Shown here: piece after piece, positions 2,725 to 26,934 of the stretch
Layout: each line of letters begins with the position of its first letter
Position numbering within the stretch: position 1 is the first letter of the stretch
Notes under the pieces: model-generated
Database searches by the model: none
The model's input: the letters and a program-made list of their open reading frames with translations, nothing else
What the model was told of the DNA's origin: nothing
Translations under genes and position numbers: made by a program
Origin: an uncultured Clostridia bacterium
Lineage (GTDB): Bacteria; Bacillota; Clostridia; Christensenellales; UBA1242
Assembly (NCBI GenBank): GCA_944381215.1
Contig: CALWKF010000009.1
Span: 1-60,952, forward strand
DNA: 60,952 nucleotides
Reading direction: 5' to 3'

Positions 2725-2960
2725 ATAATGAACCGCGCGGATTGGGACGCCTAAAACAAGTGCTGATTAATGACAAGCACTTTTGTCCCGATCGCTTAAA
2801 TGATGTCGTGTCTAGCGATATCTTTAAGGTGCTGTCAAATTACATGGATATAGATAGTGCCGACTTGCTATCAAAAATCTCAATCGACGAGCAGGGCAAC
2901 TACGTGCTTCGCTTCAAGGTCAAGTGCAAGCGTTTAAAAATTATGGGGCTACTTTCGTAG
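2721..2960 (+). CDS. minE: MinE-like topological specificity factor
   Basis: 79 residues. The start ATGA overlaps the minD stop and is preceded by AAAGGAGGAGAGT, so the two are translationally coupled. Residues 8-24 (GRLKQVLINDK) match the anti-MinCD helix/strand of MinE. The section IFKVLSNYMDIDSADLLSK matches the MinE dimer domain around its KYVxID core, and a beta-strand with a Leu-rich pattern follows. MinE stimulates MinD ATP hydrolysis and drives oscillation. The C-terminus is short but complete. Identification rests on pattern and position after minD. Confidence 0.8.
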   Translation: MNNEPRGLGRLKQVLINDKHFCPDRLNDVVSSDIFKVLSNYMDIDSADLLSKISIDEQGNYVLRFKVKCKRLKIMGLLS

Positions 2961-2967
2961 GTGGCGT

Positions 2968-3117
2968 ATGAATTTAAATTGGTTATTTAAGGCGGTTATA
3001 ACGGTGATTTGCACGGTTATCGTAATGCTGGTCATCGACACGCTAGGACTTACAAACCCCATTAGCGAAGCAATCAATGAGCTCGACGACATATTCTATG
3101 TTAATTTAGGGGGATAG
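2968..3117 (+). CDS. 49-residue single-span membrane peptide in the spoIVFA position
   Basis: ATG 2968 follows TAGGTGG, and the stop lies 2 bp before the spoIVFB start. The product has a short N-terminal segment (MNLNWLFKA), one hydrophobic span of about 18 residues (VITVICTVIVMLVI) and an acidic outer tail of about 25 residues (SEAINELDD). In Bacillus the gene directly before spoIVFB is spoIVFA, a single-span partner that holds the protease inactive. Position and topology suggest a minimal counterpart, but sequence identity cannot be shown from so short a protein. The reading frame could also be a conserved leader peptide. Confidence 0.5.
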   Translation: MNLNWLFKAVITVICTVIVMLVIDTLGLTNPISEAINELDDIFYVNLGG

Positions 3118-3119
3118 GT

Positions 3120-3968
3120 ATGAAAAAATTTAAGTTTTCTATTCATCCGCTGTTTTTGGTGTTTGCAGTTGCACTGATTTATTTGGGGTACTTTTATATC
3201 CTGCTTGCATACGTGCTTACTATTATTTTACACGAATTTGCACACGCCTTTGTCGCTAATAGACTAGGGTACAGACTAAACCACATCACTCTAATGCCAC
3301 ACGGTGCCTCACTCTCGGGGCAGAACGCTTTTTTTAGCGTGCGTGACGAAATTTTGGTCGCAATCGCAGGACCTGTTCTAAATTTAGTGCTAGCAGTTGT
3401 AGGGTGCGCACTCTGGTGGATATGGCCTGAATCGTACCCAGTAACTGAGCCGTTTGTCTACGCAAATATGGTTACCGCAGTGATAAATTGCTTGCCGATT
3501 TTTCCGCTCGACGGCGGTAGGGTAATGCTAGCCATGTTGAGTCGAAACGGCAATCGCACGTCAGCCGTAAAAAAGATAAAAATCACCGGAATTGTGGTTT
3601 CATGCGCGATACTAGTAGGCTTCGTCATCACCGTATTTTTTGTACCCAATTACACAATGCTGGTGTTTGGCTCCTTTCTCTTCGTTACCGCTCTTTTAGA
3701 GGACAAATCAGCCTACTACTCGCACATGAACCTGTTAGAGAGCAAGACCCCATATCTCTCTCGTGGCCTCAAAATTCGCGAAATCGCAGTGCCCGAAACA
3801 ATAGAATTATATAAACTCTTTAACGCCGTTACGCCCGACAGTTTGACCGATTTTAATGTTATCGACAAAAATTATAAAATAATCGGCAAAATTACCGAGC
3901 CCGAACTCGAACGCCTAATAACCCTCTATCCTGCAAATACAAGGCTCAGCCTAATCATAAATAATTAA
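3120..3968 (+). CDS. spoIVFB: SpoIVFB-like intramembrane metalloprotease
   Basis: 282 residues, close to Bacillus SpoIVFB. The zinc motif HEFAH lies in a membrane span near residue 38, followed by MPHGASL, and the second metal site NCLPIFPLDGGR lies near residue 125, both typical of site-2 proteases of the M50B family. Six or so hydrophobic segments fill the first 190 residues; the last 90 resemble a degenerate CBS domain (FNVIDKNYKIIGKI). In Bacillus this enzyme cuts pro-sigma-K in the mother cell during sporulation; the Bacillus order min genes, spoIVFA, spoIVFB is retained here. The ribosome site AGGGGGAT is good. Confidence 0.88.
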   Translation: MKKFKFSIHPLFLVFAVALIYLGYFYILLAYVLTIILHEFAHAFVANRLGYRLNHITLMPHGASLSGQNAFFSVRDEILVAIAGPVLNLVLAVVGCALWWIWPESYPVTEPFVYANMVTAVINCLPIFPLDGGRVMLAMLSRNGNRTSAVKKIKITGIVVSCAILVGFVITVFFVPNYTMLVFGSFLFVTALLEDKSAYYSHMNLLESKTPYLSRGLKIREIAVPETIELYKLFNAVTPDSLTDFNVIDKNYKIIGKITEPELERLITLYPANTRLSLIINN

Positions 3969-5271: not shown

Positions 5272-6060
5272 ATGTCACCTAATCCTACTGCTTTTACTAT
5301 TTTCGGCCTCGATGTGCATTGGTACGGCATAATTATAGCGTGCGCACTGATTTGTGCGTTAGTTTTGGCATACTTTATCGCTCCTATGCGTGGGTTTAAA
5401 AAGGATGACCCGTTCGAGTTAATTCTGTGGCTTTTCCCGCCCGCAATCATTGGGGCAAGGCTATACTTTTTAATATTTAACGGCGGTCCATGGGGCTGGG
5501 ATGCATTCAAAATTTGGGACGGCGGAATTGCGGTATACGGAGCAATAATCGGTGGCGCAATAGGCGCAGCATTATATTGTATTTTTAGAAAGCGCAACTT
5601 TTTTAGCGTCGCTGACATCGCTGCACCCTGCGTAATCTTAGGGCAGGGAATTGGCAGAATCGGTTGCTATTTCTCGGGCTGTTGCTACGGTGTTACTGTT
5701 ACCGATCCCGCAATGCAGTTTTTCCCAGTTTCAGTATTCGTGCACGGCGAATGGCACTTGGCGACAATGTTTTATGAGTGCTTTGCCGACCTAATTATCT
5801 GCGCGATTTTGGTTATCATTCTCAAAAAAGTGAAGATTCGCGGAATAGTGCTTTCGGGGTACTTAATTCTGTATGGCATTGCCCGCGCCGTTATCGAGGG
5901 CTTTCGAGGGGAGTCGCTAATGGTAGGCTCCTTGCGCGTCAGCCAAGTGCTGAGTATCATCTTGATTGCAGTCGGGGTGGCATTAGCGATATTCCTAATC
6001 ATAAAAGAAATTAGAGATAACAAAAAACCAAAAGAGGTGCTGATCGGTGGAAAGGTTTAA
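5272..6060 (+). CDS. lgt: Prolipoprotein diacylglyceryl transferase
   Basis: 262 residues with seven hydrophobic segments. Lgt moves a diacylglycerol group from phosphatidylglycerol to the lipobox cysteine of pre-lipoproteins at the membrane. The signature region GRIGCYFSGCCYG (near residue 128) and WDGGIAVYGAIIGG (near residue 80) are conserved family blocks; the Cys-rich form of the signature is common in Clostridia. It starts at ATG 5272 after AAAAGGAGCGCGT. Its end overlaps the next gene by 14 bp. A lipoprotein substrate in the window is the protein at 29060-32152. Confidence 0.92.
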   Translation: MSPNPTAFTIFGLDVHWYGIIIACALICALVLAYFIAPMRGFKKDDPFELILWLFPPAIIGARLYFLIFNGGPWGWDAFKIWDGGIAVYGAIIGGAIGAALYCIFRKRNFFSVADIAAPCVILGQGIGRIGCYFSGCCYGVTVTDPAMQFFPVSVFVHGEWHLATMFYECFADLIICAILVIILKKVKIRGIVLSGYLILYGIARAVIEGFRGESLMVGSLRVSQVLSIILIAVGVALAIFLIIKEIRDNKKPKEVLIGGKV

Positions 6061-6886
6061 AAGAGAAAAAGACGGCTACGCTCCGCGCGAAGTCGACGAC
6101 TTTTTGGAAAGAATGCGCAACGAATACAACGAAAAGATTCGCAAGCAGAACGAGCAGATGTTCAAGATGAATCAGGAAATGAACGACCTTAGATATAGTA
6201 TCGAGGTCTATAAGGAAAAAGAGCGCAAAATTTCAAAGGCGTTAGTAAAGGCCGTTCAAAAGGCGGATGAAATCACCGCTTCTGCTCGCAATGTTTACGA
6301 CTTGGAGATAAAAAGAGTTCAATTACTTTATAAAAAATGGGAGAATGTGTTGAACGAATTGAGGAGTAAATTCGCAGGGCTACTACCAGGCGAAGAAATA
6401 GATAATTTGGTGGGCGACTTCCAGTACGCGCTCACTGTAACATTAAATTCGCAGTTGAATGAGAAAGGCGAGAGGGTGTACTCAAAATCAGTGCTCGAAA
6501 AGATGCAACACCGCACGCCATCCATTACACAGGACGGGAAAATCGACCCCGCTGTTACCTTGAAGGAAAACGAGATAAAGGTCTACTACGACAGCGAAGG
6601 CAGGCGCATCCAGTCGATTACTCGGCAGAAGCATAACGACGAGGAAATCACTCTTGCCGAAAAGTTTTTGAATGGCGAGGATGTCGAAATGCCCAAGAGT
6701 TATGGCGAGATAGGCCCAAATGTCCTCGAAGTTCCGCCAGCCGAGTTTACCCGCGCTCTAAATGAGAGCAAGGACGGCTTTAACATCCAAGAGGCCCTGC
6801 ACCCGCAAGAGTCTCTGCGTGAAATCTTGCGCGCCTTCGACCTCGACACCGAAGAAGTTAATCCCGAGCCCCACATGAAAAGATAA
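6047..6886 (+). CDS. DivIVA-like coiled-coil protein
   Basis: 279 residues starting at GTG 6047, with AGAGGTG upstream inside lgt. The first 20 residues contain DGYAPREVDDFLERM, which matches the DivIVA N-terminal motif (GY-x-x-x-x-VD-x-FL) that binds curved membrane. A charged heptad region follows to about residue 90, and then a less regular acidic C-terminal half not typical of DivIVA. Family members (DivIVA, GpsB, SepIVA) recruit division or polar proteins. Translation appears coupled to lgt, which suggests shared expression. It may be a division partner for the MinD/MinE genes upstream, but that is inference. Confidence 0.65.
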   Translation: MERFKREKDGYAPREVDDFLERMRNEYNEKIRKQNEQMFKMNQEMNDLRYSIEVYKEKERKISKALVKAVQKADEITASARNVYDLEIKRVQLLYKKWENVLNELRSKFAGLLPGEEIDNLVGDFQYALTVTLNSQLNEKGERVYSKSVLEKMQHRTPSITQDGKIDPAVTLKENEIKVYYDSEGRRIQSITRQKHNDEEITLAEKFLNGEDVEMPKSYGEIGPNVLEVPPAEFTRALNESKDGFNIQEALHPQESLREILRAFDLDTEEVNPEPHMKR

Positions 6887-7136
6887 TTTGCGCCCAATAT
6901 TAATAGGTAGTAAATCATATTAAATCGTACTCACATGAATAGGTAGTTATTAGCAATGTGGATGGGTAGTTATTAAAAATAAGTGTAGTAATTAAGAATA
7001 TGAAGAGATAATAATTAACATTTTTATAAAGTTATATTGCTCCACTTAAAAAGATAATTTAATTCGCAACTTCCATGCTACTATTCATTCTATCAGCATA
7101 AATTTTCTACATAACATAATTAATTTAATTATAAAC

Positions 7137-7164
7137 AAAAAACAGCCTTGGGGCTGTTTTTTGT
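7137..7164 (-). terminator. Terminator of nifJ
   Basis: CAGCC/GGCTG stem with flanking A and T runs; it works in both directions and begins right at the nifJ stop codon. The 250 bp between here and the DivIVA-like gene show only AT-rich sequence with loose copies of GGTAGTTATTA. Confidence 0.75.
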
Positions 7165-10100
7165 TTATTCCTCATTTGCAAGTTTAGTGAGTTTGGAGTA
7201 GAGTAGGTCGCTGTCTTGCTTTGCCTTTTCGAGTAGTTCTTGCGCATGTGCTGGGTTCTTTTTAAAGAGGTTTGCAAATCTACGCTCTTTCTTCAAAAAT
7301 TCGATAAAGTCCCCAGTGGGCTTAGGTGAGTCGAGGATGAGTTTATGAGTTACTGGGCTGTATCTAAACAAGTGCCAGTAGCCACACTGAACCGCCTCAC
7401 GCATAACCTGCATGCCGTTCGACATGTCAATTCCGTGATTGATACAGGTCGAGTACGCGATAATTATCGACACGCCGTCATATTCGCACGCCTCTTTAAT
7501 GGCAGTGAGTGCCTGATTCATATTCGCCCCCAAGGCAATCTGCGCGACATACACATCGGGGTAGGACATCGCCATTAAGCCTAGATTTTTCTTGCTAGTC
7601 TGCTTACCACTGTCCGCAAATTTTGCGACCGCTCCCGCAGGAGTTGCTTTGCTTGCTTGACCGCCAGTGTTACTGTAAACTTGGCTATCGAGCACTAAAA
7701 TATTGACATTTTTGCCACTCGCTAACACGTGGTCAAGCCCGCCGTAACCGATATCGTACGCCCAACCATCGCCACCGATTATCCACACGGTCTTGTCGTT
7801 AAGGTCCTCACGCCTATCCAAAATCTCGCGCATAAGGGCTTGGGCCTGCGCATTTGATGTTGGCAAGTTTTCCTCAATCGCACCAAGTAACTGCACGCTT
7901 GCCACTTCGCTCTCATCAAGGCTCTTAGCGTTAAACCACTCGGCAATGTAGTTTTCTAGTATTGGTGCCTGCGCCCGCAAAGCCTCGAGAGTGGTGGCAA
8001 TTTGTCTCTTTTTGCTGTCTAGTGCTAGCCTCATCCCGAGCCCGAACTCCGCGTTGTCCTCAAACAGACTGTTTGCCCACGCAGGCCCGTGGCCCTCACT
8101 ATCTACAGTGTACGGGCAACTCGGGAAACTGCCACCGTAAATACTACTACAACCGGTCGCGTTAGCAATCACCATTTTGTCGCCATACAACTGCGTAGCC
8201 AAACGGATGTACGGGGTCTCACCACAGCCAGCACATGCACCGCTAAACTGGAAGTGCTGGGGCGCAAACTGACTGCCTTTTACCGTAAACTTGTTAAACA
8301 CCTTCGGGTTCTCAATTTTTTCGGCAAATCGGTAGTTCTCAGTTTGCTCCACGGTCTCTTTGTCGCCGTCGCTCATAACTAACGCCTTCTTTAATGCAGG
8401 GCAGACGTTCGCACAACTGCCACAGCCCGTACAGTCAAGAGGGGAGATTTGGATGCGGAACTGCTTTCCCTCGAGCCCTTGCGCCTTGATTGCCTCAAAG
8501 GTCGTGGGAATCTCGACGCCGTCCTCAATCAACACTGGCTTAATCGCACCGTGCGGGCACACAAAACTACACATATTACACTGAATGCAGTTTTCAGGTA
8601 TCCACTTGGGGATATTTGTGGCGATTCCGCGCTTCTCGTAACGCGCCGTGTCGGTGTCAATGTGCCCGTCCGCGTTAAAGGCACTGACAGGAAGTTTGTC
8701 GCCTTCGAGTCTCGCAATCGGCTCCATAACGGACCTCGCAAACTCCGTCTTGTCCGCATCGTAGGTCGTGGTAATCTCGTTTAGCGCGTTCTGCCAAGAG
8801 GTAGGGATGTTTATTTTCACAATCTCAGCCCCGCCCGCATCGATCGCACGGTAGTTTTGCTCAACAACCGCTTCACCAGCCTTGCCGTACGACTTTTTCG
8901 CCGCATCTTTCATGGCAATGACCGCCTCATCGTAGGGGATGATGTTGGAGAGTTTGAAGAACGCCGACTGCATAATCGTGTTGATTTTGCCTTTTAGACC
9001 CAGTTTATCTGCAATGTCTTGCGCGTCGATTATAAAGAGCGTTATGTTGCGCCTCGACAGTTCACGCTTGAAGGAGGCTGGCAGTTTGTCCTCAATCTCG
9101 CGGGGCTTCCAATCGCAGTTTAGGAGCAACGTCCCGCCGTTTTTGAGTTTGGAAAGGAAGTCATATTTGCCAATGTAGCGCGCATTGTGGCACGCGATAA
9201 AGTCCGCCTTGTCAATCTCATAAGGTGCCGTTATCGGGTGCTTCCCAAATCGCAAGTGCGAAATCGTTACACTGCCACTTTTCTTACTGTCGTACACGAA
9301 AAAGCCCTGCGCATAGAGCGGGGTCAACTCGCCAATAATTTTAATGCTGTTCTTGTTCGCACTGACGGTCCCGTCGCTACCCAGCCCGTAAAATAAGCAC
9401 TGCGTCATGCTCTCTTTTAGCGAAAATTCGGGTAAAATTAGGCTCGAGCCCGTCATATCATCAGTTATTCCCACCGTAAAATCACGCTTTCCATTCGGCA
9501 CACAGTTTTGTATCACCGCCATTGCGCACGCGGGGGTAAAGTCCTTTCCGCCAAGGCCGTACCTGCCACCTAGTACAGGTAGGTGAATACCGCGCTCCGA
9601 AAGCACTGCACACACATCGAGGTACAAGGGCTCGCCAGCACTCCCGCCTTCCTTCGTGCGATCGAGCACCGTTATCGTGCGTGCGGAGCGGGGAAGCACG
9701 CTCAAAAACTCATCCGTGTAGAACGGGCGGTACAGCCTAACTGTGATTATGCCCACTTTGTCGTTGTGGTCCTTATTATACTCATCCGCCACACGCTCGA
9801 GGGTCTCCGTGCTACTGCCCATGGACACGATAATGCGTTGCGCATCAGGGGCCCCGTGGTAACTAAACGGCGCGTAGTGCCTGCCTGTCAACTGCTCGTA
9901 TATTTGGCACGCTTGCTTAAAGTACGCCCCAACGCTCTGGAAGTAACTCTCGCTCGCTTCGCGGTTTTGGAAAAAGACATCGGGGTTCTGCGCCGTGCCA
10001 AATTGCCTAGGCGTGTTCGGGTTCAGCCCGCGCTCTTTAAAGGCCTTGATTTTCTCGAAAGGAATAACCTTTTTAATTTCCTCGTTGTCGAGCACCGAAA

Positions 10101-10641
10101 TTTTATTGATTTCGTGCGAAGTGCGGAACCCGTCGAAAAAGTGCAAAACTGGCACGCTACTGTTTAAGGCCGTAATCATCGAAATGAGCCCTAAATCATA
10201 GCACTCTTGCACGTTTTTGGACGCAATCATTGAAAAGCCCGTCTGCCTGCACGCCATTACATCGCTGTGGTCGCCGAAAATGGACAGCGCGTGAGTGGCC
10301 ACCGTCCTCGCTGCCACATTGAATACGCACGGGAGCAACTCACCAGCAATTTTGTACATATTGGGAATCATTAGTAGCAACCCTTGGCTCGCCGTAAAGG
10401 TGGTAGTTAAACTCCCGCACAGCAAACTCCCATGCAAGGCCCCAACAGCACCGCCTTCGCTCTGCATCTCGACCACTTGCATGCTCCCGCCGTAAATATT
10501 AGGTTTTTTCGCCGCCGCCCACTCGTCGCAAGCCTCCGCCATAGGCGAACTCGGGGTAATAGGGTAAATTATGGCAGTTTCGTTGACCGCGTACGAGGCC
10601 ATTGCCGCTGCCGTGTTTCCGTCTGTCGTAATTGTTTTCAA
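7165..10641 (-). CDS. nifJ: Pyruvate:ferredoxin (flavodoxin) oxidoreductase
   Basis: 1158 residues, the full length of the single-chain enzyme. It converts pyruvate and CoA to acetyl-CoA and CO2 and passes electrons to ferredoxin, a central step in anaerobes. The N-terminal domain starts ITTDGNTAAAMASY. The two ferredoxin-like 4Fe-4S motifs are CIQCNMCSFVC and CTGCGSCANVC (around residues 685-750), the proximal cluster begins CAGCGETPY, and the thiamine pyrophosphate motif is GGDGWAYDIGYGGLDH near residue 960. The start is TTG at 10641, seven bases after GGAGGAGAG. It is transcribed alone from its own promoter, divergent from truA. Confidence 0.97.
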   Translation of the reverse strand: MKTITTDGNTAAAMASYAVNETAIIYPITPSSPMAEACDEWAAAKKPNIYGGSMQVVEMQSEGGAVGALHGSLLCGSLTTTFTASQGLLLMIPNMYKIAGELLPCVFNVAARTVATHALSIFGDHSDVMACRQTGFSMIASKNVQECYDLGLISMITALNSSVPVLHFFDGFRTSHEINKISVLDNEEIKKVIPFEKIKAFKERGLNPNTPRQFGTAQNPDVFFQNREASESYFQSVGAYFKQACQIYEQLTGRHYAPFSYHGAPDAQRIIVSMGSSTETLERVADEYNKDHNDKVGIITVRLYRPFYTDEFLSVLPRSARTITVLDRTKEGGSAGEPLYLDVCAVLSERGIHLPVLGGRYGLGGKDFTPACAMAVIQNCVPNGKRDFTVGITDDMTGSSLILPEFSLKESMTQCLFYGLGSDGTVSANKNSIKIIGELTPLYAQGFFVYDSKKSGSVTISHLRFGKHPITAPYEIDKADFIACHNARYIGKYDFLSKLKNGGTLLLNCDWKPREIEDKLPASFKRELSRRNITLFIIDAQDIADKLGLKGKINTIMQSAFFKLSNIIPYDEAVIAMKDAAKKSYGKAGEAVVEQNYRAIDAGGAEIVKINIPTSWQNALNEITTTYDADKTEFARSVMEPIARLEGDKLPVSAFNADGHIDTDTARYEKRGIATNIPKWIPENCIQCNMCSFVCPHGAIKPVLIEDGVEIPTTFEAIKAQGLEGKQFRIQISPLDCTGCGSCANVCPALKKALVMSDGDKETVEQTENYRFAEKIENPKVFNKFTVKGSQFAPQHFQFSGACAGCGETPYIRLATQLYGDKMVIANATGCSSIYGGSFPSCPYTVDSEGHGPAWANSLFEDNAEFGLGMRLALDSKKRQIATTLEALRAQAPILENYIAEWFNAKSLDESEVASVQLLGAIEENLPTSNAQAQALMREILDRREDLNDKTVWIIGGDGWAYDIGYGGLDHVLASGKNVNILVLDSQVYSNTGGQASKATPAGAVAKFADSGKQTSKKNLGLMAMSYPDVYVAQIALGANMNQALTAIKEACEYDGVSIIIAYSTCINHGIDMSNGMQVMREAVQCGYWHLFRYSPVTHKLILDSPKPTGDFIEFLKKERRFANLFKKNPAHAQELLEKAKQDSDLLYSKLTKLANEE

Positions 10642-10672
10642 TTTATCTCTCCTCCAAATTTATTCTAATGCG

Positions 10673-10701
10673 ATTATACCACTTTAAAAAAAGTTAGACA
10701 A
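10673..10701 (-). promoter_or_regulatory. Promoter of nifJ
   Basis: On the minus strand, TTGTCT, a 17-bp spacer and TATAAT. It is back to back with the truA promoter, 15 bp away. Confidence 0.65.
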
Positions 10702-10716
10702 ATATTTTAATACAAT

Positions 10717-10746
10717 TTGCCAAAGTTAGATTACCTATGTTATAAT
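10717..10746 (+). promoter_or_regulatory. Promoter of truA, placed for a leaderless transcript
   Basis: TTGCCA (10717-10722), an 18-bp spacer and TATAAT (10741-10746). Only six bases separate the -10 box from the ATG at 10753, so transcription would start at or next to the start codon. Confidence 0.65.
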
Positions 10747-10752
10747 AAAAAT

Positions 10753-11490
10753 ATGAAGAGAATTTTGATTTTAATTCAGTTTTTGGGTACAAACTATTCG
10801 GGCTGGCAAACCCAACCAGGCTTAGAGACTATTGAGGGCAACTTAGAGCGCGCCGTTTTCGAGACCACGGGCGAGCGGGTGACAGTCCACAGCAGTGGCA
10901 GAACGGATGCAGGAGTCCACGCCCTCGCTATGCCCGCGCACTTTGATACAAACACCCGTATAGTACCCGAGAATTTATACAAGGCTCTCAATGCGCATCT
11001 GCCTAGTGATATTAGGGTACTTTCTAGTCGTGAGGTCGACGAGCACTTTCACGCGCGCTTTGATGTCAAGGAAAAGACCTATGAGTATCACTTTTATACG
11101 AGCCCAATGCCCCTGCCGTATTACAGCACCACCAGCGCTTGGGTAACTGCACCCTTCGACTTCGACCTCGCCAAAAGCGTCGTTAATGCGTTTGTCGGTA
11201 CACACGACTTCGTGGGCTTTGCTAGTAGCAAAACAGAGGTCAGTAGCACAGTGCGCACGATTACCAAAATTTCGCTAACAAAAAAAGCCCCCAACCAGTA
11301 CTGCCTCTCAGTTACGGGCGACGGCTTTTTGTATAATATGGTCCGCATAATCGCAGGCACTGTTATCGAAATCGGGCAGGGGAAAATCGCCCCAGATTCA
11401 CTCCCAGACATTATCGAGAGTCGCGACCGCAAGCGCGCTGGCCGTACCGCCTCCGCCGTCGGCCTAGTCCTAAAAGCTGTAAAGTATTAA
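10753..11490 (+). CDS. truA: tRNA pseudouridine(38-40) synthase TruA
   Basis: 245 residues. TruA makes pseudouridine at positions 38-40 of the tRNA anticodon arm. The catalytic aspartate lies in SSGRTDAGVHA near residue 50. The motifs HFHARFDVKEKTYEY and DGFLYNMVRIIAG are also typical. An in-frame TTG lies at 10717, but it is the -35 box of the promoter and has no ribosome site, so ATG 10753 is chosen. There is no Shine-Dalgarno sequence before that ATG either (see findings). It ends in its own terminator. Confidence 0.93.
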   Translation: MKRILILIQFLGTNYSGWQTQPGLETIEGNLERAVFETTGERVTVHSSGRTDAGVHALAMPAHFDTNTRIVPENLYKALNAHLPSDIRVLSSREVDEHFHARFDVKEKTYEYHFYTSPMPLPYYSTTSAWVTAPFDFDLAKSVVNAFVGTHDFVGFASSKTEVSSTVRTITKISLTKKAPNQYCLSVTGDGFLYNMVRIIAGTVIEIGQGKIAPDSLPDIIESRDRKRAGRTASAVGLVLKAVKY

Positions 11491-11512
11491 GGCACATCAA
11501 AAGTGCTTTTTG
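11489..11512 (+). terminator. Terminator of truA
   Basis: GGCAC/GTGCT stem with a 7-nt loop followed by TTTTTGT, right after the stop codon. Confidence 0.6.
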
Positions 11513-11583
11513 TATAATTTTTTATTCAAAATCTCTAAATTTGCCTTATTTTATTCAACATATTTCCTTTTAATTCAATCAAC

Positions 11584-18369: not shown

Positions 18370-18777
18370 ATGGCAGCAAAAGCAATTCCTAACCCATACA
18401 CACATGCAACTGGGCGTCGTAAATCATCTATCGCCCGCGTGCGTATCATTGCAGGCAAGGGTAAAATCACAATCAACAAGAAGGACATCGAGGAATACTT
18501 CGGCCTTGCAACTCTTAAACAAATCGTTCGCCAGCCATTGGTTTTGACTAACACCTTAGATAAATACGACGTGTACGTAACAGTAAATGGTGGTGGCTTT
18601 GGTGGACAGGCAGGTGCCATTCGTCATGGTATCGCTCGCGCACTCGAGAAAGCAAACGCAGACTTCCGTCCCGTTCTCAAAACCGCAGGGTTGTTAACTC
18701 GCGACCCACGTATGAAAGAGCGTAAGAAATATGGTTTGCACAAGGCGCGCCGTGCTGTACAGTTTAGCAAACGTTAA
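18370..18777 (+). CDS. rpsI: 30S ribosomal protein S9
   Basis: 135 residues ending in the conserved RRAVQFSKR tail, which reaches the P-site tRNA. Other family blocks are [13 protein letters not shown] and [21 protein letters not shown]. The ribosome site GGAGG lies at the end of rplM. The last 70 bp of the gene plus 25 bp downstream are repeated several times further on (see att-like repeats), which suggests that the 3' end of the gene has served as an integration site. Confidence 0.97.
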
Positions 18778-18802
18778 TCGCGAACGTGGGCAAGAGCCAG
18801 CC
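18705..18802 (+). repeat. att-like repeat, copy 1 (3' end of intact rpsI)
   Basis: Runs from CCCACG in rpsI to CAGCC after the stop. It contains the coding end of S9 and TAATCGCGAACGTGGGCAAG. Its outer parts CCCACGT and ACGTGGG are inverted. It is the reference for copies 2-4. Confidence 0.8.
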
Positions 18803-18888: not shown

Positions 18889-18980
18889 CCCACGTATGAA
18901 GGAAAGAAAGAAATACGGTGATGCGCGCCGTGCAGTACAGTTCAGCAAACGTTAATCGCGAACGTGGGCAAGAGTCAGCC
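18889..18980 (+). repeat. att-like repeat, copy 2
   Basis: 92 bp. It still encodes [19 protein letters not shown] in frame with a stop, with many synonymous changes against copy 1 (for example ATGAAGGAAAGAAAG for ATGAAAGAGCGTAAG). It is preceded by GGGCGAGGCTGTCTATTAAA, also found before copy 3. Confidence 0.8.
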
Positions 18981-19067: not shown

Positions 19068-19155
19068 CCCACGTATGAAAGAGCGTAAGAAATATGGTGA
19101 TGCGCGCCGTGCTTTTAGTATCACAAGCGTTAATAAATAGGGTCGTTAGCCAGCC
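19068..19155 (+). repeat. att-like repeat, copy 3 (left border of the cargo island)
   Basis: 88 bp. The start is very close to copy 1 (CCCACGTATGAAAGAGCGTAAGAA region), but the end is degenerate (GCTTTTAGTATCACAAGCG instead of GCTGTACAGTTTAGCAAACG). The copies are spaced 184 and 179 bp apart. Confidence 0.75.
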
Positions 19156-19290: not shown

Positions 19291-21606
19291 TTGACACATT
19301 TAAGAGATTTTATTGTAAGAACACGTCTTGACAATACTGACGAAAATCAAAAAACAGGTAACTCTGCGTTTGATACCCAAGATTATGTGTTCTTTGAAAC
19401 ATATGATGAAGTGAAAGGCATAGATTCAGATAAACGTTATGTTTACGCTTCAGATTACGCTGTTATGAATTGGGCCCCCCTTAGCGGAAAAAGGAAAGGT
19501 CCTAAGGGTAGACAATCGACTTGGCATTGGCTGCGCTCGGCCTACGGTAAGTCTCATGTCGACTGTGTTACTGATGGAGGCTCGCTCACCTCTCACAATG
19601 CAAGCTTCCAGAGCATCGGGCTGTGTCCAGCTTTACACCTTAATCTCTCATCTGTAATCTCCGCGCGAAGCGCGTCACGCGACTTTAAAATCAAGCCTTT
19701 TAAGGATGAAAATGGCAAAATTTTATATTACACTATTGAATTTGGCTCTTATCCACAAGATAAAGCAAGAAATAGTAGTGAATTAGAAAAATTATATAAT
19801 GCACGTAAATTAACTCCAACCGGTAAAACCTACACTGGATATATGAAAGAAGACGGCAGTTTTGAACAAAACCAGGAGTTTGAATATGGTGATAAAAAGT
19901 ATGTTAGAGTTATTTCAAAAAAATATGATATTGACTCTGAATATAAGGACAAAACAAAAGCGCCAGAAGACGGAACTCCTATGTGGGCCAAAGTTCAACC
20001 AATCAAATGGAAAATAAAAAATTGGGATGAACTTCCAAGGTCTATTAATCCTAATGGAAATGGAACTGCTAAAACTATTTATGTAAAATCTGAAGAAGTA
20101 ATTATGTCAGGAATTCCTTTCTATCCAGAATATGACAAAACAGAACATACAATGTGGCAAAACAGTCTATTGCGCGCGTTTTTTAATGACTATGATTTAT
20201 ACGAAGAATTGAGTAAGGGAAACGGAAATAAAAGATATAAAGCGGATAAAAATTATTGTTTCAAAGGTAAAGGCTTTCTACAAGAAGCGCTTGATAGTTC
20301 TTTGAGCATTTCTTCCGCTATCACACAAGAAGATGAAAAAGAACGTACACAAGAGTCACAAAAGCGTTGGTCAAGGCTCGAAAAACTAAATCCAGACAAG
20401 ACCCCCGCAAAACTCCGCAGAAGAATGACCGATACCGAAATGATTAAGAGCTGGATTGATGCAGGGCAGTCAGTGTTGCTTCGTGGTCCCTCTGGAATTG
20501 GTAAAACTGAGAGAATTAAAAAGTTATATCCAGACCTAATTTATATTAAACTCACAAATAATATGTTCCCCGAAAAAGTCGTTGGCTCTATGAACCTGCA
20601 AACAGGACAGGCAATTCCGCCAGACTTCGCGAAAACTGCGCTGTTGTCCTGTGCAACGGAAGAGGAGCGCAAACTAATTGAAGAAAATATTCAAAATCTT
20701 TATGAACTTGCAGACACGATTTACGAGCGTTCCAAATCAGCAAAAGGCAAAGTTGTTATTATGCTTGACGAACTTTTGAATGTAAAGCCTGCTGTTCAAT
20801 CGCTTGTTTACACGCTTGTGCTTAACCAAATTGTGGAAACAGGGAAAGGGCTAAAACTTCCCGCAAATACCGTTGTTGTAGCCACTGGTAACCAGAAAAA
20901 ATATTCAACTGTTGCAGAAGACTTAGCCGAGCCCCTCGAAAAGAGGTTTGACCACATCTTAGATATGGAGCCGAAGGTGAGCGAGTGGCTTTACGAGTAC
21001 GCTATTCCTGAAAAAATTCATCCATCAGTCATTGGCTATATATTCTCAAAATATTATGAAAATAGTCGCAGTGATGAATTAGGTAACATAGGTTACTTTT
21101 ACGAAGAGCCCGAAGTCGGCGAAAATCATCTCGATAAAAATGGTTGTCGTGGCAGAACAAACGACCCTCGAGGCTGGGCCTCGATTTCAAACACCTTGTA
21201 TGCCTTGGAGGAAGATTTAAAGAATGGAAAGTTTGTAGGAAAAGATGTCGAGGCATTGGTAAGGGTTTCAATTGGCTCCAAACTTCGCGAGGAATGGGCA
21301 GAGGAATTCTTTAACTTTTATAATTATCCTACTCTTACTGTTGAAGAGATTGTTGAAAAAAGATACACCAAGGCAGACTTGCCTGCTGATATTAACGAAA
21401 AATTTGCAACAATGGCGGGACTTTTAAATGCGACACCAGAGCAGGTCAGCGCTTGTCGAAAATTTATACGCAAACATTGCGACCCTGAATATTTGTCTGT
21501 TTTCGATATTTATTGGGCAGGTAATGATGAGGAGCGTATGGAAAAAATCGTAGAACTAAGGGAACTTTCTGCTAGCAAATCAGAGATTGAGGGGGTATAT
21601 AGATGA
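19291..21606 (+). CDS. MoxR-type AAA+ ATPase with N-terminal DUF6273/C-type-lectin-like regions
   Basis: 771 residues from TTG 19291 (ribosome site AAAGAGGTGAT). Residues 1-120 resemble the second half of a DUF6273-type lectin-like domain (VFFETYDEVKG, HWLRSAYG, LCPALHLNLSS). Residues 130-340 resemble the first half of such a domain (IEFGSYPQDKA, PIKWKIKNW, WQNSLLRAFFNDY), so the halves are in inverted order. From about 375 a MoxR-like AAA+ domain follows: Walker A LLRGPSGIGKTE, Walker B VVIMLDELLN, sensor 1 VVVATGNQ and an arginine region EPLEKRFDH. MoxR proteins work as remodelling ATPases with VWA partners; both partners are encoded next. The lectin-like part may bind a target. A role in biological conflict is inferred from the architecture. 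Confidence 0.8.
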   Translation: MTHLRDFIVRTRLDNTDENQKTGNSAFDTQDYVFFETYDEVKGIDSDKRYVYASDYAVMNWAPLSGKRKGPKGRQSTWHWLRSAYGKSHVDCVTDGGSLTSHNASFQSIGLCPALHLNLSSVISARSASRDFKIKPFKDENGKILYYTIEFGSYPQDKARNSSELEKLYNARKLTPTGKTYTGYMKEDGSFEQNQEFEYGDKKYVRVISKKYDIDSEYKDKTKAPEDGTPMWAKVQPIKWKIKNWDELPRSINPNGNGTAKTIYVKSEEVIMSGIPFYPEYDKTEHTMWQNSLLRAFFNDYDLYEELSKGNGNKRYKADKNYCFKGKGFLQEALDSSLSISSAITQEDEKERTQESQKRWSRLEKLNPDKTPAKLRRRMTDTEMIKSWIDAGQSVLLRGPSGIGKTERIKKLYPDLIYIKLTNNMFPEKVVGSMNLQTGQAIPPDFAKTALLSCATEEERKLIEENIQNLYELADTIYERSKSAKGKVVIMLDELLNVKPAVQSLVYTLVLNQIVETGKGLKLPANTVVVATGNQKKYSTVAEDLAEPLEKRFDHILDMEPKVSEWLYEYAIPEKIHPSVIGYIFSKYYENSRSDELGNIGYFYEEPEVGENHLDKNGCRGRTNDPRGWASISNTLYALEEDLKNGKFVGKDVEALVRVSIGSKLREEWAEEFFNFYNYPTLTVEEIVEKRYTKADLPADINEKFATMAGLLNATPEQVSACRKFIRKHCDPEYLSVFDIYWAGNDEERMEKIVELRELSASKSEIEGVYR
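19516..19674 (+). other. Segment resembling a variable region of diversified lectin-like proteins
   Basis: Encodes the stretch from STWHWLRS to LCPALHLN, followed within 15 bp by a GC-rich hairpin CGCGC-GAA-GCGCG. The segment is GC-richer than the gene around it. In diversity-generating retroelements the variable repeat sits in this part of the lectin fold and is often followed by a short hairpin. No reverse transcriptase or template repeat is in the window. Confidence 0.4.
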
Positions 21607-21983
21607 TTAAAGAACTAATAGATTTACAGCGCAATTCAAAGGCAACTTGCGCGATAATCGAGGACTCGGACAGCGGGAAATTATTGCCAACAGTTTTAAT
21701 GAAAGCAAGTGTCAGCGATAAGTTTCTTTTTTCGAATAAACCGCCTTTTGCAGACAAAATTGATGAAAAATGCGCAAAAAACAAACTATGTTATTTTGTT
21801 ATCAAGGGAATTGATGAAATTTCAACGGAGCAACAAAATAGATATGTTGGACTTGTTAAAGATAGAGAGTTTAACGGGTATGCTATTCCCAATAATTGCA
21901 TTTTAGTCTTTACCGTGCAAAATAGGTCTAATTTAAAAAAAGTGTCTAGTGAGTTATATCACTTTGCCGTCGTTGCTTTTTAG
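21603..21983 (+). CDS. Small AAA-like protein without a Walker A motif
   Basis: 126 residues; its start overlaps the stop of the MoxR gene (ATGA). The middle reads FVIKGIDEISTEQQNRYVGLV and then NNCILVFTVQN, which parallels the Walker B and sensor 1 part of MoxR ATPases (DEIDK..NRLL.., VVATGN). The P-loop is missing and the Walker B acidic pair is weakened. It may be an inactive partner that joins or regulates the ATPase ring, or a decayed remnant of a second ATPase. Tight coupling between the two flanking genes argues for a retained function. Confidence 0.55.
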   Translation: MIKELIDLQRNSKATCAIIEDSDSGKLLPTVLMKASVSDKFLFSNKPPFADKIDEKCAKNKLCYFVIKGIDEISTEQQNRYVGLVKDREFNGYAIPNNCILVFTVQNRSNLKKVSSELYHFAVVAF

Positions 21984-22020
21984 TTTGATATAATCTAGTT
22001 TTATACAAAAGGAGTCTGTT

Positions 22021-23547
22021 ATGAAATATGATGTAAAACTATTGGAAAATGTCAAAAAGTTGATGCTTGTTCGCTTTCCGCGTTTTGCCTCTCAAATCTC
22101 TTCTGCAAAACTAGAATATAAGACAGATTTAAAATATCACACAGCAGCAACTGACGGGAAAAATATCTATTTTGACCCAGAATATTTTGCGAGCTTAAAT
22201 GACGATGATAAACTTTTTATCACAGCCCACGAATTTCTACATATAAAATTTGAGCACATGTTTAGAATGACTGATAAAAATGGACAAAAGCGAGATATAA
22301 GGCTATGGAATATAGCAACAGATGCCATAATAAATGCAAATTTAGAGAGGGACGGCTTTAAAATAAAAGAGGGTTATGTCAATATGCCCGAGGCCCTAAA
22401 TTATAGCGCCGAAGAATTTTATGAAAAACTTTTGGCAGAAAAACAAGAACAACAACAATCTGGAAACGGACAAAATCAAGGTCAAGACGCACAAAATAGT
22501 CAGGGCCAAAACACCAGCCAAAATAAAAATCAAAGCAGTGAGCGAAACAACAGCGAAATTACTGAGCGAAGCAAACAAGAAAGTCAAGCAAACCACGAAC
22601 AACAAAAAAGTCAAAGCGACCAGCAAAATACAAATACTTCTAAAAAAGATAAAGACTCTACCAAAACAGGCGATTTTTCCAAACTCATTCAAAAACAAAC
22701 TGGACAAAACATGGATAATAATACACAATTTGCTGATGACCATAGCTTGTGGGGAGAGAGTCCAGAGCAAGAAAATGAAGTTAAAAATGGTCAAGTAGGT
22801 AGTAAGCTAATCTCAAACGCTCAAAATAAAGAAATTGATGAAAAATTTGAATTTCAGCAAAATCGGGAAGAAAGACGCGAACTAGCAAAACGCAGTATAC
22901 AAAGTTTATGGAATCAGGAACTTAAAAAACTTGAGGATAGGAATATCGAACTTGGAGATATTGGGGAAGAAAAGCCGATTCTCGACTGGAAATTGTTGCT
23001 CAGACGCGAGGTCGAGAAGACGGATACTATTTGGTCACAACGCAAATCTATTGCCGAAAATAATTATGCGTACAGGCTCGAGGAAATAGACGAGGATGAT
23101 GAAGCGGAAACCGAAGTTATGATAGATGTCTCGGGCTCCGTGTCAAATGAAATGATTAGGTCCTTTTTAAGACAGTTAAAACCTATATTAAAAAATTCAA
23201 AACTTAAAGTTGGCTTTTTCGCAGATTTTGCTACAAAAGAATTCCAAGAGATTAAAAAAGATAGAGATATTAATAACCTAAAAATTTACAGGCCAGGTTA
23301 TGGCACTAATATGGATACAGCAGTTAGAACATTTTCAAAAAAGCCCGAGGTAAACAAAATTATATTTACTGACGGTTATCCAGGGCAGGAGCCGAAGCAG
23401 GACTTAAAAGACGTAAATGTAATTTGGCTTGTATACGAAAATAAAGACTTTCATCCATGTTGCGGTAAAGTCATCAATGTAAATTTAAAAGATTTTCAAG
23501 ATTTAAATGCAAAGAGAAAAACGGACGAATTAGAATTATCAAAATAA
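22021..23547 (+). CDS. Metallopeptidase-VWA protein, partner of the MoxR ATPase
   Basis: 508 residues after AAAAGGAGTCTGTT. Residues 1-140 form a zinc peptidase-like domain with HEFLHIKFEH near residue 70 and DIRLWNIATDAIIN further on, as in DUF2201 N-terminal domains. Residues 145-240 are a Gln/Asn/Ser/Lys linker of low complexity. Residues 365-500 are a VWA-like domain with the metal site DVSGS near 370 and FTDGYPG near 455. MoxR ATPases and VWA proteins with this build are found as gene pairs and may assemble into conflict or chaperone systems. It probably acts in the cytoplasm, as no signal peptide is seen. Confidence 0.82.
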   Translation: MKYDVKLLENVKKLMLVRFPRFASQISSAKLEYKTDLKYHTAATDGKNIYFDPEYFASLNDDDKLFITAHEFLHIKFEHMFRMTDKNGQKRDIRLWNIATDAIINANLERDGFKIKEGYVNMPEALNYSAEEFYEKLLAEKQEQQQSGNGQNQGQDAQNSQGQNTSQNKNQSSERNNSEITERSKQESQANHEQQKSQSDQQNTNTSKKDKDSTKTGDFSKLIQKQTGQNMDNNTQFADDHSLWGESPEQENEVKNGQVGSKLISNAQNKEIDEKFEFQQNREERRELAKRSIQSLWNQELKKLEDRNIELGDIGEEKPILDWKLLLRREVEKTDTIWSQRKSIAENNYAYRLEEIDEDDEAETEVMIDVSGSVSNEMIRSFLRQLKPILKNSKLKVGFFADFATKEFQEIKKDRDINNLKIYRPGYGTNMDTAVRTFSKKPEVNKIIFTDGYPGQEPKQDLKDVNVIWLVYENKDFHPCCGKVINVNLKDFQDLNAKRKTDELELSK

Positions 23548-23706
23548 ATTATATAAGCTTTTTTAAAATGCATGATTTTTTCAAGTTTGCAATAATACGA
23601 AATTATATTCATTTCAAGTTTACAAAAGCAGAATATATGTATATTTTATATTTGTTAAATTTATAAAAACACAGATTTCACAAAGCTCATCATGTAGTAT
23701 AGTTCT

Positions 23707-23744
23707 GCGCAAACGTTAATCGCGAACGTGGGCAAGAGTCAACC
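23707..23744 (+). repeat. att-like repeat, copy 4 (right border of the cargo island)
   Basis: GCGCAAACGTTAATCGCGAA and the following CGTGGGCAAGAGTCAACC match the end of copies 1 and 2. Only the distal 38 bp are kept, as expected for the core of an attachment site. Together with copy 3 it brackets 4.5 kb of cargo. Confidence 0.75.
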
Positions 23745-24007: not shown

Positions 24008-24186
24008 ATTAAAATAGTGTAAAAACACGTAAAAAATGCGATTTTTTAAAAAATACAAGCAAAAATATGGTCGATTTTATAAATTTCTACACATTTTGAC
24101 AAAATGTATTTAAATGTTAAAAAATGTTGCTAAAAATCGATTATTGTGATAAACTAAATTTATAAAACTTTTTTTGGAGCGTGGTT

Positions 24187-26934
24187 GTGACAGAGTTATA
24201 TATTAGCCTAGGTTGCATTTTAATAATGCTTGGCTTTATCTTTGCATCATACAAATTGAGTAATAAAATAATGAGACTGGTATTAAAGATTGCGAGCCTT
24301 GTTTTGTTTGCATTCTATTTTTATTTTGTGTTCCAGCCTGACTTTATTGAGTCGGTTACAATCGGCGTAAACAATATTTTCTCCAATGCCGAACTCGCGT
24401 GGATAAACATACTCCGTTGGTTAAATAATGTCTGCGTGTTGGTTGCGATTCTCGCTCCGTGGTTTAAAGTTAAAACATTCGATAATATCCTTGCCTTTGT
24501 CGCTCCCGTTATATTTATTTTAGATGTTGTTTTTTACCGACTTCACTGCGAAGCTCTTTTAGGTGCGGACTTTGCCTTGACCGACACAAACGCAATTTTG
24601 TTTGCGATTGAAATTGGTATCATGGGTGCCTTTGCTGGATATTACTTGTTTAGAAAAATCAAGGACCGCGACTTTAATAACATCTGCAAGCAACTAGGCC
24701 TTATGGCGGGAATCTTGCCACTACTCATGCTTTCCGTGTTCCCGCAGAACTTCCTGTTTAACTTTTTAGGTGAAGTGGGCGAGGGTGTTGAGGACTTTAC
24801 ACTCGTGCACCGAATCTACATCTACCTTGCAGTGCTTTTCCCTGTAGCACTTACGTTTCTTTTTCGCAAGGCCGACGAGAGCATCCGTAGGTCCGTGCTT
24901 GTGTGGATCGCAATGGCAGGCTTTAATCAGTACTTCTTTACTTACACGTTTAACATGAGTCTGGGTGGCCTCCCGCTTCACTTGTGTAACACAGCAATCG
25001 TGCTCATAATGATTGCCTACATATTTAAGTGCAAGCCCGTGTTCTATTTTACGTACTTCGTAAACGTTATCGGCGCAATGTTTGCGATTCTGCTACCTAA
25101 TACCGCGACACCGATGACTGCAATTTCATCTTTGCACTTCTGGTTTAACCACTGGTACGCCTTTTTCGCCCCGATTCTGGGTATCACTCTTAAAATTTTC
25201 CCGCGCCCGAATTTCAAGATGATGCGTGGCGCAATCTATATATTCACAATCTACCTTGTCGCAATGGCAGTATTAAATGGCGTCATTAACGCAATGGGGT
25301 ACTCGGTCGATTACTTCTTCCTGTATGAAAACTTTATCGTAGGGAAGTTTGAGTTCCTCCGCCCGATAAAGGAGGGCTTTGTGTGGTCGTTTGCCGTGGG
25401 CGACGGTACCGCGCGGATTTTCTGGCTGTATGACATAATCGTGTGGGTGGCGTACGTCTTCATGATGTTTATTACGTGGCTCGTGTACTCGTATTGCTAC
25501 AAAATCAGCGACCACTACGCAGAACTCCGCGCGCTGTATAAAATCGACCTACTAGGCATCCGCGAATTAAAGAAAAAGATGAAAGGTCGCCCCATTACCG
25601 AACCAATCGACCTAAAAGGAGTAAATATGATTCAGTTTGAACATTTTAGCAAACGCTACGGAAATGCCAAAAACTATTCCGTGCACGACTTTAACCTAAC
25701 CGTAAATGACGGCGAAGTCTTTGGCTTTTTAGGGCACAACGGCTCGGGTAAAAGTACGACTATAAAGTCACTAGTCGGCATCCAGTCGATTACCGAAGGG
25801 CGAATACTCGTGTGTGGCTACGATATTGAGAAGCAACCGCTCGAGGCAAAGCGACTAATCGGCTACGTGTCCGATAACCACGCTGTCTACGAGCACCTAA
25901 CAGGGCGCGAGTATATAAACTACGTCGCCGACCTGTATGACGTCAGCGCCGAGGACCGTACCGCGCGCATGGATAGGTATGTCGAGATGTTCAACCTAAA
26001 AGACGCTATCGACCGCGAAATCAAAGGTTATTCGCATGGTATGAAGCAGAAGGTTATGGTCATTTCTTCATTGATTCACGACCCGAAGGTCTGGGTGCTG
26101 GACGAGCCACTAACTGGTCTTGACCCCACCAGCGCATACCAAATCAAGCAGTGCATGATCGAGCACGCAAGGCGCGGAAACATCGTGTTCTTCTCGAGCC
26201 ACGTCATCGAAGTCGTCGAGAAAGTGTGCGACCGCATTGCTATTATAAAGAAAGGCGAGTTGCAGGGTGTTTACAGCCTCAAAGAACTCAAAAAAGACAA
26301 CATTTCCTTAGAGGAGTTGTATCTAGGTAACATGGAAGGCACTACCACGACCGACATCGAGGTTAGTGGCGCAAAACTCCTAGACGCTAGCAAATCAGCC
26401 ACGCAAACCTCGGGGGACGAAACCGCCGAAACTTCCACCCAGCAACCAAACTCAGCCAACGAGTCAGTACAATCGAATTCGGTCAAAAACATGCAACAAC
26501 TCGACTCAACCGAAGACCTAACAGCACAACAGCCTAAATCAACCAAAAACTCGGCGCAACCAGTTTTGGCCGAAAACTCACAGCACCCCAACTCAACGAA
26601 AGCACAAACCGAACAAACTAACTTAGCCGAAGAATTAACACAAACAAACTCGACCAAAGAACAAACTCAACAAGCCAATTCGACTGAAGAAACCCCGCAA
26701 GCTGATTCAACCGAAGAACAAACAAAAAAGGCCGATTTAACCAAAGAACAAGCAAAAACGACTGGGCCGAACACAGAGGAAACGAAAGAAATTTCAAAAG
26801 CCGAACCCGACTCGGGAAACAAGCATTCCTTTATACAAAAAATCAAAATTCTAAAACTAAAAAAGGCAAAACCTGCCGAACGAAAAATAAAAATACCACC
26901 TAAAAAGACAAATTCACAAGATAAAGGGGAGTAG
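24187..26934 (+). CDS. Fusion of a YwaF-like membrane domain and an EcsA-type ABC ATPase
   Basis: 915 residues from GTG 24187 (TTTTTGGAGC seven bases upstream; an in-frame GTG at 24181 is too close to it). Residues 1-460 hold about a dozen hydrophobic segments and a stretch like YwaF/TP0381 proteins (GLPLHLCNTAIVL, HFWFNHWYAFF). From residue 481 an ABC ATPase follows: Walker A GHNGSGKSTT, signature YSHGMKQ, Walker B VWVLDEPLTGLD, H-loop SSH. The last 190 residues are a Gln/Thr/Ser/Glu-rich repetitive tail ending in a Lys-rich segment. The permease is the next gene. It most likely powers export or membrane remodelling, as EcsA-type ATPases do; the substrate is unknown. Confidence 0.85.
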   Translation: MTELYISLGCILIMLGFIFASYKLSNKIMRLVLKIASLVLFAFYFYFVFQPDFIESVTIGVNNIFSNAELAWINILRWLNNVCVLVAILAPWFKVKTFDNILAFVAPVIFILDVVFYRLHCEALLGADFALTDTNAILFAIEIGIMGAFAGYYLFRKIKDRDFNNICKQLGLMAGILPLLMLSVFPQNFLFNFLGEVGEGVEDFTLVHRIYIYLAVLFPVALTFLFRKADESIRRSVLVWIAMAGFNQYFFTYTFNMSLGGLPLHLCNTAIVLIMIAYIFKCKPVFYFTYFVNVIGAMFAILLPNTATPMTAISSLHFWFNHWYAFFAPILGITLKIFPRPNFKMMRGAIYIFTIYLVAMAVLNGVINAMGYSVDYFFLYENFIVGKFEFLRPIKEGFVWSFAVGDGTARIFWLYDIIVWVAYVFMMFITWLVYSYCYKISDHYAELRALYKIDLLGIRELKKKMKGRPITEPIDLKGVNMIQFEHFSKRYGNAKNYSVHDFNLTVNDGEVFGFLGHNGSGKSTTIKSLVGIQSITEGRILVCGYDIEKQPLEAKRLIGYVSDNHAVYEHLTGREYINYVADLYDVSAEDRTARMDRYVEMFNLKDAIDREIKGYSHGMKQKVMVISSLIHDPKVWVLDEPLTGLDPTSAYQIKQCMIEHARRGNIVFFSSHVIEVVEKVCDRIAIIKKGELQGVYSLKELKKDNISLEELYLGNMEGTTTTDIEVSGAKLLDASKSATQTSGDETAETSTQQPNSANESVQSNSVKNMQQLDSTEDLTAQQPKSTKNSAQPVLAENSQHPNSTKAQTEQTNLAEELTQTNSTKEQTQQANSTEETPQADSTEEQTKKADLTKEQAKTTGPNTEETKEISKAEPDSGNKHSFIQKIKILKLKKAKPAERKIKIPPKKTNSQDKGE
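25614..25629 (+). promoter_or_regulatory. Internal ribosome site and start for the ATPase part
   Basis: AAAAGGAG followed six bases later by an in-frame ATG at 25627, exactly where the ABC ATPase domain begins (MIQFEHFSKRYG). A separate ATPase of about 435 residues could be made from the same mRNA. Confidence 0.55.

Follow-up and report, generated by a model that had tools for sequence, protein, structure and literature searches.

The 60,952-nucleotide stretch analysed here (the window), from an uncultured Clostridia bacterium, carries three open reading frames, A, B and C, packed tightly on the + strand at 19291-23547, downstream of rplM-rpsI (Table 1). All three genes are intact. Gene A begins with a TTG start codon preceded by the ribosome-binding site AGAGGTGATCA, and the reading frames of A and B overlap by 4 nt. 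A preliminary description of this DNA had recognised a three-gene operon, and its coordinates and gene content are correct. The identities that it gave to the genes were also right, but it overlooked a variable region (VR) of the kind made by diversity-generating retroelements (DGRs), the circular permutation of the domain that contains it, and the retroelement that lies upstream in relatives. Sequence comparisons indicate that the operon combines DGR-made variability on the lectin-like domain of an AAA+ ATPase with an ATP-dead AAA core and a protein carrying vWA and HExxH domains.

Residue conservation in A, B and C was assessed on homologue alignments of 18-20 sequences. The N-terminus of A matches Pfam DUF6273 (E 2e-6; 28.2 bits against a cut-off of 23.5) over profile positions 55-171 only, and the region behind this module matches AAA_5 and AAA, both over the Pfam cut-offs. 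Columns invariant in 20 homologues include G402, G404 and K405 of Walker A, D493-E494 of Walker B, N534 at the sensor 1 position, and R552. The preliminary description had called A an AAA+ ATPase of the MoxR kind, and these residues and the AAA_5 match agree with it; we use the label MoxR-like, which rests on the AAA_5 match and on R552, the MoxR clade itself being defined by a helix-2 insert.

Gene B had been described as a P-loop-less AAA-like protein, and this is borne out. It matches no Pfam family, and Walker A is absent from its homologue alignment. The B profile matches the part of A from Walker B to sensor 1 (E 1.9e-6), and an AlphaFold2 model of B (pLDDT 87) matches AAA+ cores at Z 9-10 across 116-122 of its 126 residues, the MoxR-type proteins NorQ and CbbQ being among the matches. 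Family searches, in which models of VMAP and iSTAND were not included, named no VMAP, FtsH or beta-propeller in B. The ratio of nonsynonymous to synonymous substitution rates (dN/dS) of B is 0.08-0.11 relative to its relatives.

Protein C matches the DUF2201_N metallopeptidase domain (E 1.4e-25) and the DUF2201 vWA domain (E 5.5e-10), as expected from its earlier description as a HExxH-vWA protein. H70-E71-H74-H79, and D369-S371-S373 of the metal-ion-dependent adhesion site (MIDAS), are invariant in 20 homologues. A comparison of the C profile with structures of MJ1213 gave E 5.7e-5 over 43 positions, and we regard C as a putative zincin-type metallopeptidase. Synonymous sites in C are saturated, so that dN/dS is not computable for this gene. 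Relatives of C are labelled 'HNH endonuclease' in PHROGs (phrog_1314); this label was dropped, as the conserved residues are those of HExxH and MIDAS. A PADLOC match to DolB (E 6e-6) covered 71 residues of the AAA core only and was judged to be generic.

When A was compared with the closest of its relatives in other genera, the N-terminal part was found to be near-identical, apart from some 35 residues around WLRSA...GLCPALHLNL. Searching at the DNA level with this variable stretch yielded second copies outside A in three genomes, ending at the same two boundaries. These second copies are DGR templates; one of their frames reads WLRSANSKNNVNNVKNDGSLNNNNANKKSAGLCP. Between template and A lies the gene for a reverse transcriptase (RT; Pfam RVT_1, E 2e-18; motifs LPIGNQTSQ and YIDDM). 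The window VR aligns without gaps to the templates of G092, G138, G030 and L138 (G-numbers denote genomes, and L-numbers loci). Against the G092 template, 21 of 37 adenines are changed in the window VR, compared with 6 of 67 other bases (p 2e-7); the template and VR of G092 itself differ at 18 of 37 adenines and 1 of 67 other bases. The corresponding counts for the L138 template are 24 of 40 adenines and 6 of 68 other bases (p 1.7e-8), and 19 of 40 and 0 of 68 for the VR of L138 itself. Judged on this pattern, a DGR origin of the window VR is near certain. Ordinary positive selection was considered as the source of the variability and ruled out, the changes being adenine-specific against the template.

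Substitution rates were estimated separately for the VR and for the remainder of A. Outside the VR, dN/dS is 0.10-0.13 relative to four relatives, indicating that this part of the gene is under purifying selection; within the window VR it is 1.8-3.0. Synonymous divergence is lower in the VR (0.13-0.23) than in the rest of A (0.43-0.50). Replacement of the VR sequence by that of a conserved template, at a time when the genes had already diverged, would be expected to leave such a difference. No RT homologue, RVT_1 domain or template was found in the assembly to which the window belongs, which is 94% complete. The window copy of A is thus a former or trans-dependent DGR target, not a complete DGR. 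It looks functional, but since this genome has neither RT nor template, the VR is probably frozen and its specificity fixed, and the six non-adenine changes fit later ordinary mutation.

Relatives were collected in one scan, in which an alignment of A was run against 84,980 species genomes, giving 75 loci. Because retrieval was motif-based, proportions among these loci do not represent prevalence; nearly all of the relatives are metagenome-assembled genomes (MAGs). Their titles name Clostridia, Clostridium or Clostridiales, Christensenella, Candidatus Caccovivens, Bacilli or Bacillales, Tenericutes and unnamed bacteria, and many name animal-gut sources. A neighbourhood survey found A, B and C together at 50 of the 75 loci, confirming that the three genes occur together; a full-length RT is present at 20 of these 50 and a partial one at 4. 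In its complete form the gene order is Avd-template-RT-A-B-C, with the DGR directly upstream of A. A blind search for template/VR pairs gave adenine-specific pairs at about 20 loci, with mismatches almost only at template adenines; at L144, for example, 18 of 37 adenines and no other bases differ. A gene of about 190 amino acids upstream of the template is common to 21 loci, and the two members that were tested match Avd (NF033474, E 1.8e-10 and 8.7e-7, below the strict NCBI cut-off). With RT, template, Avd and a VR in the adjacent gene, these relatives carry a complete DGR. One template serves two A genes at L162, L165 and L168, and the RT or A gene is broken in some relatives.

The loci L160, L161 and L192, from two sheep MAGs and one water-buffalo MAG, are 99.4-100% identical in RT, in B and in A outside the VR. 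Over 84 positions of the VR, each represented by one consensus sequence per MAG, L160 and L161 differ at 5 (94% identity), and L192 differs from them at 20 and 21 (76% and 75%). The VR differences listed for these loci sit on template adenines. This points to hypermutation that is active in the relatives now, or was so recently. A protein of about 158 amino acids without a Pfam match is encoded between A and B at L158, L162, L164-L168, L170-L176 and L188.

The VR lies in a module whose fold was predicted with AlphaFold2. Residues 1-340 of A form a single compact domain (pLDDT 94.2, pTM 0.92). In canonical DUF6273 proteins of the same bacterial family (L285 and L299), the half containing 'PIKW...WQNS.IR' comes first and that containing 'WLRS...RPAL' second. 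The order is swapped in A, where residues 217-302 correspond to canonical residues 7-92 (53% identity) and residues 9-122 to canonical residues 128-247. The alignment to these two family proteins settles the permutation, and by this alignment the N-terminal 340 residues constitute one circularly permuted DUF6273 domain. The best structural match of the module in VIA-align is to residues 152-318 of the IgA peptidase ThomasA (Z 5.3 over 125 residues), a stretch spanned by the DUF6273 annotation at residues 31-322. The C-type lectins CEL-IV (Z 2.6) and Ly49C (Z 2.2) match residues 33-115, weakly when taken on their own. A Foldseek search of the PDB returned nothing significant for the module, which the permuted order would help to explain, and profile comparison with the secreted DUF6273 proteins of the same genome was clear only for the C-terminal half. 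The module therefore shares the sequence of both halves, and the fold, with DUF6273 (PF19789), as found in the N-terminal domain of ThomasA (PMC12402451) and in those secreted proteins, but differs in that its halves are reversed and fused to an AAA+ ring ATPase. The preliminary description had proposed recognition by a lectin-like N-terminus. Structure prediction gave one confident domain related to DUF6273 and C-type-lectin folds, and no other fold, so that the relationship stands; the module is, however, a DGR-diversified, permuted one and not a static lectin, which makes recognition more than a guess.

As a result of the permutation, the VR comes to lie near the N-terminus of A. The operon shares with catalogued DGRs (Roux et al. 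2021, PMC8144416) the Avd gene, template, RT, adenine mutagenesis and a VR in a C-type-lectin-like domain. In DGR targets the VR is near-universally C-terminal, and the explanation given is that retrohoming requires cis elements outside the coding sequence (PMC8144416). Here, in loci with an intact frame, it occupies about residues 69-119 of an A protein of about 690-770 residues, and any cis elements that follow it must be coding. An inverted repeat is found 33-35 nt past the VR in every locus examined, with compensated arms (CGCGC/GCGCG, CACGC/GCGTG, GCCTC/GAGGC and CCCAC/GTGGG). The stem strength is unexceptional, and it is the fixed offset and the compensated arms that are suggestive of a coded cis element for retrohoming.

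Permuted modules also occur in other arrangements. At L052 (944-residue reading frame, 5318-8152) and L053 (1050-residue reading frame, 8403-11555) BspA-type leucine-rich repeats are joined to the module in place of an ATPase, and the L052 fusion has its own RT and an adenine-specific template/VR pair (11 of 29 adenines against 0 of 93 other bases). The protein encoded at L067 (G096, 7275-9461) is far closer to the window A in its module than in its ATPase (395 and 85 bits, best pieces), and sensor modules seem to be swapped between ATPases by domain shuffling. Several stand-alone N-terminal modules without an ATPase lie beside A, B and C at L206 (1079-10422) and L075, and are possibly extra sensors or recombination reservoirs. 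A carries two N-terminal modules at L148 and L149. Its C-terminus has tandem repeats of about 70-100 residues each at L148 (890-6034), L155 (6001-8979) and L197 (4794-7349), with the motif ITIDEFW...IHTPTKEQ...VFDKMGKKW...; no Pfam family covers these repeats.

The operon had been thought to lie in a genomic island, and this is supported by an empty site in two congeners and by mobile-element genes beside copies in relatives. In G087 and G148 the genes that flank the operon (rplM-rpsI and an ABC gene) are adjacent, with no operon between them; G087 has a copy of its own elsewhere in the genome, partly broken. Distribution across the lineage was also checked. DUF2201_N is present in only 25 of 147 genomes of the family and, among the matches listed, in 2 of 7 of the genus of the window; the operon is therefore patchy and not core in the family. 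The copy at L147 is bracketed by 56-bp repeats that resemble the 3' end of a tRNA and also enclose an integrase-family gene, a tyrosine integrase lies near L139, and a serine recombinase and a Mob_Pre relaxase adjoin Avd at L160, L161 and L192.

Several members of the genus carry tandem repeats of the rpsI 3' end, spaced by about 180 bp in the window and in G148. Such tails occur also in G148 contig 18 at 2814-3266 (L314) and in G043 contig 10 (L316), and they carry complementary CCCACG/CGTGGG ends. They may be integration remnants or repeated regulatory hairpins. The idea that they are the insertion sites of the operon was dropped, as the empty-site congener G148 has the same tandem tails. 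These are consequently a pre-existing feature of the site, and the operon seems to have been inserted into an array of repeats that was already there.

Table 1. Features of the operon and of the flanking rpsI-tail repeats (window coordinates)
Feature	Position	Strand	Description or basis
Gene A	19291..21606	+	MoxR-like AAA+ ATPase, 771 aa, N-terminal permuted DUF6273 sensor module
Gene B	21603..21983	+	AAA+ core without Walker A, 126 aa
Gene C	22021..23547	+	508 aa; DUF2201_N zincin-like (HExxH) domain and vWA domain with intact MIDAS
N-terminal module of A, aa 1-340	19291..20310	+	Circularly permuted DUF6273 (C-type-lectin-like), from AlphaFold2, swapped-order alignment and structure match
DGR variable region, ~aa 79-115 of A	19527..19634	+	Gap-free alignment to templates; adenine-biased mismatches
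In-frame hairpin CGCGC-GAA-GCGCG, ~35 nt past VR	19662..19674	+	Possible retrohoming cis element
AAA+ (MoxR-like) ATPase domain of A	20374..21540	+	Pfam and invariant columns
HExxH motif of C	22228..22242	+	Invariant in 20 homologues
rpsI real 3' end plus the bases after it (tail copy 1)	18705..18802	+	
rpsI-tail duplicate (copy 2), upstream of operon	18889..18980	+	
rpsI-tail copy 3, partial	19068..19134	+	
Partial rpsI-tail copy downstream of operon	23693..23744	+	97% identical to copy 2 over 38 bp

Searches of viral contigs and phage records gave ATPase-level relatives only (about 21-28% identity), and plasmid records gave two matches, both to generic ATPase sequence. Tailed phages do encode distant A-like and C-like proteins (phrog_1297 and phrog_1314), which share with the operon a homologous ATPase and a metallopeptidase-vWA protein; they differ from A in that the variable N-terminal module was not detected in the viral-contig and phage-record searches, and in their ATPase, which is about 21-25% identical.

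Nine other DUF6273 proteins are encoded in the same genome, one in the window at 52883-54838 and the others at eight further places (L001-L003 and L005-L009). The seven of the nine whose VR was inspected look secreted and have a WWSRSG...VR(P/A)ALHLNL framework with DGR-like variation; a second DGR, unlinked or lost, is likely to lie behind them. Elsewhere in the window, 24181-26934 encodes a single protein that joins a TMEM164-like membrane region to an ABC transporter ATPase and has a long tail rich in threonine and glutamine, adjoined by the gene for a 541-residue membrane-type protein without a Pfam match.

Two groups of MoxR-vWA ternary systems come closest to the operon. In the VMAP subsystem with DGRs, whose members have been proposed as antigen sensors (Kaur et al. 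2020, PMC7159879; Dore et al. 2024, PMC10907252), a MoxR ATPase, a vWA protein and a third protein occur together with a DGR-diversified C-type-lectin fold, and antigen sensing coupled to peptidase effectors has been suggested. Those systems have the VR in an FGS/CLec domain at the C-terminus, in most cases that of the vWA protein; in the present operon it is contained in a permuted DUF6273 domain close to the N-terminus of the ATPase. The third partner is an AAA core of 126 residues, and the family searches identified no VMAP protein. The known cases are mostly from multicellular bacteria (PMC10907252), in contrast to the small-genome gut Bacillota of this study, in which the system is on mobile elements. 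The iSTAND ternary systems (Kaur et al. 2020; PMC12839542) share a MoxR ATPase, a peptidase-bearing vWA protein and an inactive P-loop-less NTPase, and some carry FGS domains. B differs from their NTPase in being a minimal AAA-like core, not a demonstrated iSTAND, the sensor appears to be on the ATPase, and C is a DUF2201-type protein, a name that does not occur in Kaur et al. 2020. The operon resembles both kinds of system, which are the closest described, but with the variable sensor moved onto the ATPase. Our claim of novelty is a limited one, since a lack of earlier reports among openly licensed papers is weak evidence.

Together these features suggest a sensor that acts inside the cell and can evolve, with defence as its probable purpose. 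We consider it rather probable that these genes make up a mobile ternary system of the MoxR-vWA kind, in which the ATPase bears a DGR-made antigen-binding face, and that it works through the following ring and peptidase mechanism. A would be cytosolic and assemble into an AAA+ ring, in which the ATP-dead B takes part as a subunit or which it regulates. The variable lectin-like face would bind a foreign protein in the cell, for example that of a phage, and ligand binding would alter the ATPase cycle of the ring. The ring may then act on the vWA domain of C and so release or aim the HExxH peptidase, whose putative cleavage of host or invader proteins would stop the invader or the cell. Hypermutation would yield new sensor specificities, of which useful ones would be retained by selection; in the window genome, loss of RT and template would have left the specificity probably fixed. 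An antiviral role is favoured but unproven. Two observations weigh against this explanation: the operon is kept in lineages without RT, so that hypermutation is not always needed, and RT and template are missing from the window genome, where no diversification would occur unless they lie in its unassembled part.

Diversifying recognition might also serve a purpose other than antiviral defence, such as discrimination of kin and competitors or sensing of host and diet, with C modifying the cell's own proteins. Kin recognition has been proposed as an alternative role of DGR-diversified conflict systems (PMC10907252), the hosts are gut bacteria by their record titles, and the same genome encodes secreted proteins with similar hypervariable DUF6273 domains. 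The N-terminus of A, however, shows no signal peptide on inspection by eye, so that A should meet intracellular molecules only, and carriage on mobile elements is more in keeping with defence or competition than with a housekeeping sense; we think a non-antiviral role unlikely, though less so than the two explanations that follow. Remodelling or metallation of client enzymes is a common activity of MoxR-vWA pairs (PMC7159879). The operon might accordingly encode such a pair, acting in chaperoning or assembly as RavA-ViaA, CbbQ-CbbO and NorQ-NorD do, and the variable domain would then fit the ring to different clients from the host or its mobile element. The fold of B matches NorQ and CbbQ among others, and the distant proteins of tailed phages can be read in the same way. 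A hypermutated client-binding face is nevertheless hard to square with a fixed client, the distribution is patchy, and the neighbourhood holds no conserved client enzyme, the conserved extras being Avd and, in some lineages, the 158-residue protein. This explanation seems to us quite improbable.

A similarly low probability is given to decay, in which case the window operon would be what is left of a DGR element and would no longer have a function. Such decay would account for the absence of RT and template from the assembly, for six non-adenine changes in a VR when RT-bearing relatives have none or few, and for the broken RT or A genes of some relatives. The three genes of the window are nonetheless intact, and the dN/dS values of A outside the VR and of B are low. 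The sensor proposed above, made by a DGR and carried by the ATPase, is the preferred reading.

In this family, circular permutation has broken the near-universal rule that the VR of a DGR target is C-terminal, so that the motor protein is the one that bears the mutable face. DGR-diversified ternary systems are thereby extended to gut Bacillota with genomes of about 1 Mb, in which they are mobile and in which near-identical natural strains differ almost only in the VR. We give about an even chance to the broader proposition that an AAA+ ring ATPase itself bears a retroelement-diversified antigen receptor, and that this provides unicellular, genome-reduced gut bacteria with an anticipatory and evolvable intracellular immunity, spread by small mobile elements, in which a chosen specificity may be kept after the mutator is lost. 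The operon offers a compact system for a direct test of DGR-made bacterial immune receptors and of what those receptors bind.

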